From the NCBI GenBank assembly GCA_002709695.1, contig PAQF01000022.1, forward strand, positions 1-52,424: a DNA stretch of 52,424 nucleotides, given 5' to 3'. Made by a program: the position numbers and the translations under genes. This document shows, piece after piece, positions 8,503 to 12,600 of the stretch (its first letter is position 1; each line of letters begins with the position of its first letter). The stretch comes from Candidatus Poribacteria bacterium. Lineage in GTDB: Bacteria; Poribacteria; WGA-4E; UBA9662. The notes below the pieces were generated by a model. It did not search any database, was not told where the DNA came from, and saw nothing but the letters and a program-made list of their open reading frames with translations.

Positions 8503-10704
8503 ATGCAGTTTGCTTACTTCTGGCAATTGTGGCAGGTAATTTTAGCCTTCGTCATGGTTATCAGCATAACATCATTCGCTTATATCCGGCTTAAAAGTCC
8601 AATTTCCGCTAGAGTGCGAGCAAGTCTTATTTCTCTAAGAATCCTAGCTGCAACAATCCTTCTTATCTGTTTACTAGCACCAGTTGTAGTCCAGAAAATA
8701 GATATCACCCCTCCGAACAACCTACTCATTTTGGCCGATAGATCCACGAGTATGAACATCCAAGACGTATCAAATAACGGTGAGAAAGTCGACCGTATGT
8801 CTACCGTGAACAATTTACTATTCAATCGAGACAGCGATTTCATTAAGCAGCTCAATGACCATTTCGCCACACATATTTACCAGTTCGATCAAAACCTTGA
8901 AAAAACCACTGAAAACACTTCTGAAATCCATGCAGGTACAGGCTTAACTGACATTACCAAATCTATCCAAACTGCCATCAACGAATGGCGAGGACAAGCA
9001 ATATCTGGCATTGTATTAATTACCGATGGAGGACACAATACGTCAAAATTTGACACGACCCCACTTGTGGCTCTAAAGGTACCAATTTACTCAATTGGCA
9101 TTGGTGACCCCAACCCACAGAATGATCTGGGAATCGCTAAAATCGAAGTTGAACCCATAAACTACCTTGATCATGAAACAACAATCAAGGTAATTATACG
9201 TAACAATGGTTACACAGGAACAAAAATACGCCTGAAACTTAAGCAAAATGACCGTATTATAAGGACAGAAACAATCACTTTGGCGAATCAAAAAGATCAA
9301 ATTGTTACCTTCACTATTATTCCCAAAGAGGAAGGAACTCTTCAATATCTTGTTTCACTACCAATACTCGAAGATGAGATAACAACCAGCAACAACCAGA
9401 AAAAATTCACCCTCAAAATTGTCCGATCAAAACTCCGTGTCCTCTACATCGATGGCCTTCCTCGCTGGGATTACACTTTCCTAAAACGCATATTGGAAAA
9501 AGATCCAAACATAGAAGCAAACTGCCTAATTTTATCACTGGCAAACAGAAACTTACGAATCCAACCAAAGTTCCCACAAAGCGAAGCAGAATTAGTTGCT
9601 TATGACGTCCTCATTATTGGTGATATCGAAATAAATAAACTCACTTCAAACCAACAAAAAATAATTAAGAATTTTGTTGGGAAACGAGGTAAATCAATCG
9701 TGTTTTTAGGAGGCAAAAACTCGCTGGGCAGAAGAGGTTTAGGGCAATCACAGATGGCTGATTTGATGCCAATTGTGTCACCTACAACTGGTTGCCGTTC
9801 CTTAGATCAAGATTTCTTACTTCGCTTAACAACACAAGGCAAATCCCATCCCATTATGCAACTCGGAGGCACAAGAGAAATAAACGACGTCATCTGGCAG
9901 AATCTTCCCCCGCTTTCAAGACGAATTTCCGGTTTTCAACTCAGAAGTGGAGCAACAGCACTAGCTGAACTCGACCACCCTACATTAACCGAACCAATCA
10001 TTATTTTTCAACCGTATGGCCTTGGTAAAAGTTTGTTAATCGCAGCTGAAGGCCTATGGAATTGGGGATTTGGAGCATGGAATTTCAGAAAAGATGGGGG
10101 CAATAACTACCCTCGCTTCTGGGGACAAGCAATTCGTTGGTTATCAAGCCAATCCTCGGCTAAACAAATCCATATTATTGCTGATAAAAGCACGTATCTA
10201 ATCGGTGAAGAAATCAAAGCAACTATTTACACTTATGATAAGATATACCAACCCCTTGACAAAACAAAGCTTAAGCTCGATGTCACACTGCCCAACAATA
10301 AAGTTTTCCAGATTCGGGCCGATCAAGATAATTCAATACTTGGTAGACATACAGCGAAATTCGTGATAGACAAAGAAGGCAAATACACACTGGCAGCATC
10401 TGGAACTATTGACGGTGTATCCATCGGAGAAGACAAAGTTATTGTCTTTTCTGAGCAACAAGTTGCTGAATTCGAAAACCCACAACTCAACCACAAACTG
10501 CTAACATCACTGGCAGACCAAACGAATGGTATATACTTATCTATCAACAAAGCAAGATCATTACCAGATCAAATTGTGGATCAGAGGAAACCAGTCTTTG
10601 CCACCGAAGAAAAAGATCTCTGGGATAATCCAATTATATTAATTCTTGCCGCAGGATTACTCGGATCCGAGTGGTTTTTGCGCAAACGGAAAGGATTAGT
10701 CTAA
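8503..10704 (+). CDS. Large membrane protein with von Willebrand A domain and GATase1-like domain
   Basis: The 733 aa protein has two N-terminal TM helices (about 8-28 and 43-63) and one at the very C-terminus (about 709-725), so the bulk faces the periplasm or cytoplasm as one block. After the second TM comes a vWA domain with a complete MIDAS: D79-R-S81-T-S83, a T in GTGLTD, and ITDGGHN. A beta-rich CARDB-like region follows, then a class I glutamine-amidotransferase-like fold (LRVLYIDGLPRWDY, then DVLIIGD and KSIVFLGG), then a beta-sandwich before the last TM. This layout is found in uncharacterised membrane proteins of Planctomycetes and relatives; the function is unknown, and no MoxR ATPase is adjacent. 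Shine-Dalgarno AAGGG at 8492. The gene ends 5 bases from the convergent selenoprotein gene. Confidence 0.85.
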   Translation: MQFAYFWQLWQVILAFVMVISITSFAYIRLKSPISARVRASLISLRILAATILLICLLAPVVVQKIDITPPNNLLILADRSTSMNIQDVSNNGEKVDRMSTVNNLLFNRDSDFIKQLNDHFATHIYQFDQNLEKTTENTSEIHAGTGLTDITKSIQTAINEWRGQAISGIVLITDGGHNTSKFDTTPLVALKVPIYSIGIGDPNPQNDLGIAKIEVEPINYLDHETTIKVIIRNNGYTGTKIRLKLKQNDRIIRTETITLANQKDQIVTFTIIPKEEGTLQYLVSLPILEDEITTSNNQKKFTLKIVRSKLRVLYIDGLPRWDYTFLKRILEKDPNIEANCLILSLANRNLRIQPKFPQSEAELVAYDVLIIGDIEINKLTSNQQKIIKNFVGKRGKSIVFLGGKNSLGRRGLGQSQMADLMPIVSPTTGCRSLDQDFLLRLTTQGKSHPIMQLGGTREINDVIWQNLPPLSRRISGFQLRSGATALAELDHPTLTEPIIIFQPYGLGKSLLIAAEGLWNWGFGAWNFRKDGGNNYPRFWGQAIRWLSSQSSAKQIHIIADKSTYLIGEEIKATIYTYDKIYQPLDKTKLKLDVTLPNNKVFQIRADQDNSILGRHTAKFVIDKEGKYTLAASGTIDGVSIGEDKVIVFSEQQVAEFENPQLNHKLLTSLADQTNGIYLSINKARSLPDQIVDQRKPVFATEEKDLWDNPIILILAAGLLGSEWFLRKRKGLV

Positions 10705-10709
10705 CCAGA

Positions 10710-11075
10710 TTAGCTCTCTGCTGTCATATTCAGAGATCCTTCACTGACCATTTGATACAGCCCTTTATTATACCCAACACAAAATATCTGACCAATTCGC
10801 AAGGTCGGAGCTCGCAAATTACCACCACGACCAAGCAAAGCCATTAGAATTACTGACCTGTCAGTTCGTTCTGGAATAAAAACTTCGATTTTGTTACCCT
10901 TGGCTACGTAGACTCGCAACGCCTCATGGATCAAATCCCATGCAGAATCTCCGTCAATCTTTTCCTTATTTGAGTAACTGTACTGTACAACTTGAAAATT
11001 GTTTACGTCAAGAACCTCTTGCGCTTTCTGGCAGGAAGTTCAAGATCTTCGAAAATAAAACCAGTCGATTATCAT
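10710..11075 (-). CDS. Selenoprotein: ArsC/glutaredoxin-like thioredoxin-fold protein with UxxC motif (in-frame UGA)
   Basis: Read straight through one in-frame TGA (11042-11040), this gene gives 121 residues: MIIDWFYFRRS, Sec12, then TSCQKAQEVL. The UGA sits where the first Cys of a redox CxxC belongs, making U12-T-S-C15 followed by a helix, as in ArsC/Spx and glutaredoxin folds. Downstream come a beta strand (KIEVFIPE) and GNLRAPTLRIGQIFCVG, with the cis-Pro (P90) expected of the fold. The ATG has Shine-Dalgarno AGAGG four bases away. selA ends only 22 bases upstream on the same strand, and a hairpin begins at the UGA (11012-11041). The family recalls the ArsC family (seleno)proteins of annotation pipelines (from memory, not searched). 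It is probably a cytosolic thiol/selenol redox enzyme with unknown substrate. The alternative is a pseudogene or sequencing error. Confidence 0.87.
11012..11041 (-). promoter_or_regulatory. Candidate bacterial SECIS hairpin
   Basis: Starting with the G of the UGA codon, the mRNA can form a 7-bp stem GAACUUC (11041-11035) with GAGGUUC (11018-11012), a single C-A mismatch, then UGC (11033-11031) with GCA (11022-11020), closing an 8-base loop CAGAAAGC. Bacterial SECIS elements sit directly downstream of the UGA inside the coding region and bind SelB. The loop here is closer to the UGA than in E. coli fdhF, so the fit is plausible but not exact. Confidence 0.6.
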
Positions 11076-11097
11076 AAATCCTCTGTGTTCTCCCTTA

Positions 11098-12516
11098 TTA
11101 ATTGATTGACCTTGCAGCCTCGCAAATCCATTCGATTTCACGATCATTAACTGTCCGAAGATCAATCCAAAAGCAACCATCCTTAACTCTGCCAATAACC
11201 GATCGGGGCTGATTACGAAATCGTTCGGCAATTGAATCAGCAGCTAATTGGTCTGATTTCAACACGATAGCAAGACTCGGCAAATTAGCAACAGGTAAAG
11301 AGCCACTACCAATTTGAGCAAGGCTCTTCTCAATACTAACTTGGATTTTTTGCCTAAAAATCTCATCTAACCGTTTTAATAACTGATTGCCTATCTGCTG
11401 AAGTTCATCGAGTCGACGTGTATAACAACGAAGCATCGGCAGTTTCTTATCCAAATTAAGGTCATTGAGATATAATCTCAGCGTAGACTCCAAAACAGCA
11501 ATCGTCAGTTTTCCGACGCGCAAGGCACGCATAATTGGGTTTTCCCGAATTCTCTCGATCATTTCCTCTTTCCCAACGATAATACCAGCTTGGGAACCGC
11601 CTAACAATTTATCTCCACTAAACAAAACGAGATCAACCCCTGCATCAATTCGATCACGCACAATCGGTTCATTTGGCAAGCTGTATTTGGTCAAATCCAT
11701 AAGCGAGCCACTACCTAAATCTTCTACCGTAGGAACGCCATATCGCTGACCGAGTTCGACAATTTCATGAATTGCCGGCATCTCTGTAAACCCAACAATT
11801 TGATAGTTGCTCGGATGAACTTTTAAGAGCAGAGCAGTGTTTTCATTAATTGCTTTTTCGTAATCCTCCAAATTGGTTCGATTCGTTGTACCAACTTCTT
11901 TTAGAACAGTACCGCTGGACTCCATAACATCCGGAATCCTAAATGCCCCTCCAATCTCTACTAATTCTCCTCGTGAAACAATCACTTCTCTATCCCGAGC
12001 AAAAGTATTGAGTACCAAAAAAACTGCTGCGGCATTGTTGTTAACAATTGTTGATGCTTGACATCCAGTAAGTTGCCGCAACAATGGCTCTGTAATTCGG
12101 TCTCGATGCCCTCTTTTACCAGAGGTCAGATCAAATTCTAAGCCAACGTAGTTCTTTGCAGCCTCAACCAAACTTTCACATGCCTCATCACTCAATATTG
12201 ACCTACCCAAATTTGTATGTGTAATTGTACCGGTCACGTTGACAACCGATTGTAAATTCTGGGTCATGATTGATCTAAGTCGAGCCTGAACCATCTCAGC
12301 AATCATTGAGTCATCCGGTATATCCTCTACCCTTGGCGTACATATTATCTGCCGACGAATATCTAAAATAACAGATCGCAAGACTTCTGTTATCAGATTT
12401 CGCGAAAACTCGTTTTGAATAACAAGAAAGGGCTGAGAAGCTAGTAGCTTTTCAATAGAGGGAATACGCCGCAAAGCAGACAACTGAACAGACGTCATTT
12501 CTTTTTTCATCGACAT
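11098..12516 (-). CDS. selA: L-seryl-tRNA(Sec) selenium transferase
   Basis: SelA is the PLP enzyme that turns Ser-tRNA(Sec) into Sec-tRNA(Sec) using selenophosphate. The match to E. coli SelA is obvious along the length: NVTGTITHTNLGRS, IVNNNAAAVF, SRGELVEIGGAFRIPDVM, VGTTNRT, VEDLGSGSL and FSGDKLLGGSQAG with the PLP lysine (K303 here). Length is 472 aa from ATG 12516, or 466 aa from ATG 12498; the open frame itself goes on to 12561. I choose 12516 because a promoter (12526-12555) ends 9 bases before it, giving a near-leaderless mRNA; 12498 remains possible. selB, selD and selC are not in the window. Its downstream partner is the UGA-containing gene. Confidence 0.97.
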   Translation of the reverse strand: MSMKKEMTSVQLSALRRIPSIEKLLASQPFLVIQNEFSRNLITEVLRSVILDIRRQIICTPRVEDIPDDSMIAEMVQARLRSIMTQNLQSVVNVTGTITHTNLGRSILSDEACESLVEAAKNYVGLEFDLTSGKRGHRDRITEPLLRQLTGCQASTIVNNNAAAVFLVLNTFARDREVIVSRGELVEIGGAFRIPDVMESSGTVLKEVGTTNRTNLEDYEKAINENTALLLKVHPSNYQIVGFTEMPAIHEIVELGQRYGVPTVEDLGSGSLMDLTKYSLPNEPIVRDRIDAGVDLVLFSGDKLLGGSQAGIIVGKEEMIERIRENPIMRALRVGKLTIAVLESTLRLYLNDLNLDKKLPMLRCYTRRLDELQQIGNQLLKRLDEIFRQKIQVSIEKSLAQIGSGSLPVANLPSLAIVLKSDQLAADSIAERFRNQPRSVIGRVKDGCFWIDLRTVNDREIEWICEAARSIN

Positions 12517-12525
12517 AATTTCAAG

Positions 12526-12555
12526 AATATACTTGACACCAAGTAAAATCGTCAA
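12526..12555 (-). promoter_or_regulatory. Candidate promoter of selA, abutting the start codon
   Basis: Minus strand -35 TTGACG (12555-12550), 18-base spacer, -10 TATATT (12531-12526), then 9 bases to ATG 12516. The same segment holds an inverted repeat CTTGAC (12532-12537) and GTCAAG (12551-12556), which could be an operator or simply two opposed -35-like hexamers. Confidence 0.5.
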
Positions 12556-12600
12556 GACCAAAAATCAGGTATTAAGCAACTAGGGAGCAATAGATCGAAA

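Follow-up and report, generated by a model that had tools for sequence, protein, structure and literature searches.

Positions 10710..11075 of the window, as we call the whole stretch of 52,424 nucleotides of Candidatus Poribacteria that was analysed, carry on the minus strand a gene with an in-frame UGA, and its product is very probably a selenocysteine-containing oxidoreductase of the thioredoxin fold. It would be a protein of NF041106, a family related to ArsC and Spx, in which UGA12 is decoded by way of a SECIS element and SelB, Sec12 attacks the substrate and Cys15 resolves the intermediate. The frame that a UGA interrupts next to selA is a genuine gene of a barely studied selenoprotein family, and the biochemistry of one member would give the whole of NF041106 its name.

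A single reading frame across a UGA codon

The mechanical list of open reading frames contains the two parts of this gene as separate entries (11040-11231 and 10710-10934), and a sequence-only reading of the window had proposed that they join across the TGA at 11042-11040. Translation with TGA as U bears this out. From 11075 to 10710 the minus strand reads MIIDWFYFRRS-U-TSCQKAQEVL...GNLRAPTLRIGQ...TAES, a frame of 121 residues that contains a single TGA and has TAA as its next codon. The TGA (11040..11042, minus strand) stands at the first residue of a UxxC motif, U12-T-S-C15, and the LRAPT segment picked out by the same reading is found at residues 87 to 91. In a 17-row alignment, U12, S14, C15, V57-A-K-G60 and L87-R-A-P-T91 are invariant, among others. 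The ribosome-binding site had been judged well too: a Shine-Dalgarno-like AGAGG lies 4 nt ahead of the ATG, within the 22-nt gap (11076..11097, minus strand; ..GGGAGAACACAGAGGATTT-ATG) that separates selA from the selenoprotein gene.

Purifying selection acts on the codons past the TGA, with dN = 0.17, dS = 1.18 and a dN/dS of 0.15 over codons 25-112 in comparison with a relative of the same genus. A scan of the whole window for further conserved in-frame TGAs, made against the relative's contig, was dominated by shadow frames of ordinary genes. On the downstream side, the stop codon of the selenoprotein gene lies 5 bases from that of a convergent plus-strand gene of 733 aa (window 8503-10710).

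Conservation of the UGA and its exchange for cysteine

Whole-genome searches found a homologue in 71/83 genomes of the class, which corresponds to 71/85 genomes of the phylum. The aligned codon is TGA in all 71, spread over four families; neither a Cys form nor any other sense codon was found at residue 12 among these phylum homologues. A single-gene frame with TGA kept in all 71 homologues from the 83 class genomes is far beyond chance.

This conservation also bears on the most obvious alternative, that the TGA is a nonsense codon, true or artefactual, in a dead gene, be it a pseudogene or one dead on paper through a sequencing error. A lone stop within the frame is what decay usually looks like, and the source genome is a draft of 87 contigs. 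A decaying gene, however, would not share its TGA with every homologue across four families or show the low dN/dS past that codon, nor would its protein stay conserved as far as the C-terminus and synonymous change be all but absent from codons 17-24. Judged from the aligned sequences, conservation refutes this explanation in practice, and we give it next to no chance.

The sequence-only reading had looked to homologues for Cys at residue 12, and such forms occur outside the phylum. In one order there, that of genome G219, the gene is present in 55 genomes, of which 28 have the TGA and 27 lack a stop. Seven distinct loci of the latter kind were read (L099, identical to L087, and L110, L112, L114, L116, L118 and L119), and all have Cys exactly at residue 12, as in the segment VDWSYHRNG-C-NTC. 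In a tree built from few columns, whose deep forks are unsure, the Cys forms are nested within Sec-bearing branches of a second clade, that of this order, and the clade of the window protein is Sec only. Relatives in plasmids or viral contigs were searched for in both collections and none were found.

In one bacterial order nearly every genome has the selenoprotein family, always in its Sec form, whereas in the other Sec and no-stop forms (Cys, where read) are divided about half and half. The contrast between the two offers a ready system to ask why some lineages never swap Sec for Cys, and the 28 TGA and 27 no-stop genomes of the order of G219 form a natural series for studying the exchange itself.

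Selenocysteine machinery

Directly upstream of the gene lies selA (11098..12561, minus strand), which encodes L-seryl-tRNA(Sec) selenium transferase and scores 513.6 bits with Pfam SelA and 577 bits with TIGR00474. The selA neighbour, 22 bases away on the same strand, is therefore as the sequence-only reading described it. Adjacency to selA is restricted to the window's genus (the window's genome and locus L036 of genome G023), and selA was near the gene at none of 68 other loci within flanks of 0.7-4 kb. We consider the adjacency a genus-level accident which, being unconserved, carries little functional weight.

The same reading had named selB, selC and selD as genes to look for elsewhere in the genome, and selB, tRNA-Sec (selC) and selD were all found there. 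The tRNA-Sec scores 70.6 bits, above its cut-off, against 45 for the next candidates, which are presumably ordinary tRNAs with a long arm. The selB gene, at 343.6 bits likewise above cut-off, is on contig C82, with 19 bases between it and the tRNA-Sec (L001/L004, C82:26341-28341 of genome G000). Since this contig lies apart from the one with selA, and selD is on contig C48 (L077, C48:8595-9515, minus strand), the Sec genes extend over three contigs of the draft. The selD gene has an in-frame TGA of its own (..ACTTGTGGT-TGA-GCTGCTAAA..) and a SECIS-like hairpin with a GGUC loop 17 nt past the UGA, the 48-nt stretch reaching -14.8 kcal/mol. By the same signs as for the gene in the window, selD of this genome is itself a predicted selenoprotein gene.

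Across genomes the selenoprotein gene and the Sec machinery co-occur. A selA above cut-off is present in 62 of the 71 gene-bearing genomes, and tRNA-Sec was found in five of the nine remaining, all of which are drafts; in the other four, MAGs of which one is 96% complete, neither selA nor tRNA-Sec gave a match above the cut-offs. In eight genomes of the class selA is present and the selenoprotein gene is absent; the gene is therefore not part of the Sec machinery.

A SECIS-like hairpin downstream of the UGA

The RNA just past the UGA can form a SECIS-like hairpin at positions 19-38, with the T of TGA as position 1 (11005..11024, minus strand), for which pairing, covariation and synonymous constraint provide the evidence. 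In the window its stem consists of GCG and CAAG paired with CUUG, a bulged A and CGU, and its apical loop is AGGUU, whose second base is G, with a spacing of 22 nt between UGA and loop. Across the phylum homologues the hairpin takes the form CAAG-AG(G/U)U(U/A)-CUUG, and the outer stem is GUG/CAC, GCG/CGC or GCG/CGU across the bulged A. Pairing is kept in 95.2% of cells, and three pairs have changed on both sides in a compensatory manner. This covariation was reached in 0/500 shuffles, a figure that is not a probability because the shuffles leave relatedness in, and it exceeded that of all slid controls.

Synonymous variation tells a similar story. Over codons 17-24 the synonymous entropy amounts to 0.10 of the value that codon usage predicts, compared with 0.81-0.83 elsewhere (codons 13-16 and every block from 25 on). 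The codons for Gln19 (CAA, 69/69), Leu22 (CTT, 69/69) and Asp23 (GAC, 67/67) are frozen.

A published model of bacterial SECIS elements specifies an apical loop of 3-9 nt on a stem of 4-16 bp, a G in the first two loop positions, a distance of 16-37 nt from UGA to loop, and an MFE no higher than -7.5 kcal/mol (PMC13188914, Fig. 2). The window hairpin agrees with this model in shape, loop G and spacing (AGGUU, 22 nt). Its MFE as an isolated hairpin is -6.6 kcal/mol, which does not reach the limit of -7.5; the median among the homologues is -7.0, and 13/70 reach the limit. A 48-nt segment of the window gene, which includes a second hairpin, comes to -8.9 kcal/mol. A ribosome at a UGA would hide about the first dozen bases downstream, and when the first 12 nt after the UGA are treated as occupied, the SECIS hairpin folds with a probability of 0.998. 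Rfam gave no match in the gene region.

A rival fold, a hairpin that includes the UGA itself (window 11012-11041, minus strand), is more stable in the free RNA of many relatives, and it could gate readthrough. As a conserved signal it was dropped, its covariation not rising above that of the shuffles.

These results also speak to the proposal that the TGA is read as Trp or Cys, through a genome-wide change of the code or through suppressor readthrough. The frame is indeed open through the TGA, as such a reading would have it. Yet many other genes in the window have ordinary frames under table 11, the genome has the full Sec machinery, homologues have Cys at the site, and the SECIS-like constraint on the RNA sits as far from the UGA as would be expected, so that we hold decoding as Trp or Cys to be very improbable. 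Selenocysteine at codon 12, as the sequence-only reading had it, is very strongly supported: the machinery, the TGA in 71/71 homologues, the Cys forms, the hairpin and the purifying selection all point to it.

Family membership and known relatives

The window protein scores 106.4 bits against NCBIfam NF041106 'ArsC family (seleno)protein', for which the curated cut-off is 85, and its residues 3-107 cover positions 1-107, the full length of the model. In the genome search the cut-off was passed by 70/71 phylum members, and the window gene had the lowest score of those that are full length. NCBI had already built a model for such a protein, which qualifies the expectation of the sequence-only reading that automatic gene calling would miss or truncate it. 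This model, ArsC_rel_Se_1, resembles the window protein in its full-length match, its UxxC motif and its having both Sec and Cys members, and nothing in it excludes the window protein. In the literature, a UxxC 'Arsenate reductase-like protein' appears in the selenoprotein list of a 2026 review (PMC13188914, Table 1). Earlier, Table 2 of the Global Ocean Sampling study gave an 'Arsenate reductase 2' family (cd03032, UxxC) with 42 selenoproteins and 238 Cys homologs (PMC2398784); in the review it seems to be placed in NF041106. The ocean sequences are metagenome reads, and it is in motif and naming that they are likened to the window protein. Because the NF041106 cut-off is passed, the review lists such a protein and the ocean metagenome report of 2008 describes one, the family counts as already known; by its sequence the window protein is an added member of it and not the founder of a new one. 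Among the papers searched, none linked Poribacteria with 'selenoprotein'.

Among solved structures the nearest by profile are those of Spx (7f75, 1z3e, 6ghb and 3gfk), with weak E values of 0.003-0.005. A thioredoxin fold of the window protein is what we infer from its relation to Spx and glutaredoxin. The Grx-like UxxC and Uxx-star thioredoxin-fold selenoproteins share with it the N-terminal segment of strand, UxxC and helix, whereas Grx-type models align with only the first 25-50 residues of the window family and stay under their cut-offs. For glutaredoxin PF00462 (cut-off 22.9) the best relative has 20.9 bits over 26 residues, and the window protein is not listed. An AlphaFold2 model made from the window protein together with one relative had a pLDDT of 39 and was set aside.

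Could the protein be a true arsenate reductase of the R773 type, with Sec in place of the catalytic Cys? The general ArsC-related architecture is shared, and Arg88 in the LRAP segment might correspond to the arginine in the RP motif of ArsC, a point in favour of this function. The family name and the literature label 'arsenate reductase-like' (PMC2398784, 'Arsenate reductase 2') point the same way. R773-type ArsC (PF03960), however, has a single Cys where the window protein has UxxC, and the second Cys of such a motif is typical of disulfide chemistry. Every protein tested falls under the Pfam ArsC cut-off of 24 bits (the best relative reaches 13.9, and the window protein is not listed at E 1), Spx and glutaredoxin come closest among solved structures, apart from a single weak match to an arsenate reductase at E 0.97, and the neighbouring genes are not ars genes. 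Genuine ArsC activity is in our estimation unlikely. The name 'arsenate reductase' is inherited from distant similarity, arsenate reduction is unsupported, and a protein disulfide or another product of thiol oxidation is the more likely substrate.

A different function is suggested by the Spx matches, which extend over nearly the whole length and include CTSC, LR.P and VGYNE. Spx of Bacillus subtilis (PDB 1z3e, 7f75) has its CxxC in the same place and a similar C-terminal LR-P...VGYN segment, and the protein might by analogy be a redox-sensing regulator in which Sec12 and Cys15 are oxidised to a selenenyl-sulfide before RNA polymerase is bound. Spx itself has Cys in place of Sec, and the stretch between the motif and LRAP is unlike Spx in length and sequence. 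Scores are far under the cut-offs of the Spx models TIGR01617 (75.05) and NF002459 (123): relatives reach at most 21-23 bits and the window protein 12 bits with NF002459. A regulatory role of this kind is consequently improbable for the window protein, and the idea of an always-selenium relative of Spx in this order, sensing oxidants by its selenenyl-sulfide and binding RNA polymerase, is a long shot. If it were true, the selenium switch would explain the absence of a Cys form in 71 genomes, and as a selenocysteine-based, Spx-like control of transcription it would be a regulator of no kind known to us.

Proposed mechanism

For the selenocysteine oxidoreductase that we favour, the following course can be outlined. 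With the ribosome at the UGA covering the dozen nucleotides that follow, the SECIS hairpin further downstream would fold and bind SelB carrying Sec-tRNA(Sec), so that codon 12 is read as Sec. In UxxC proteins of the thioredoxin fold the Sec attacks, the Cys resolves and a cis-Pro lies at the active site. By extension, the selenolate of Sec12 would attack the oxidised substrate and Cys15 would resolve the intermediate as a selenenyl-sulfide, which a cellular thiol system would then reduce. The cis-Pro segment LRAP would stack against the site formed by Sec12 and Cys15.

Gene neighbours

The surroundings of the gene in other genomes offered no conserved redox neighbour or clue to the substrate at the loci examined. 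In the largest family it is flanked by a gene for a Gfo/Idh/MocA-like oxidoreductase and one for a protein like sugar-nucleotide NAD-epimerases, both on its own strand and each present at 39 loci (neighbours named by eye); the other families have mixed neighbours. Outside the phylum, two loci (L103 and L104, in genomes G178 and G316) have downstream, on the opposite strand, a gene with the pattern CPCN..CACDE..CHCLLF. Its product resembles the catalytic subunit of ferredoxin-thioredoxin reductase and is a possible electron donor for the selenoprotein.
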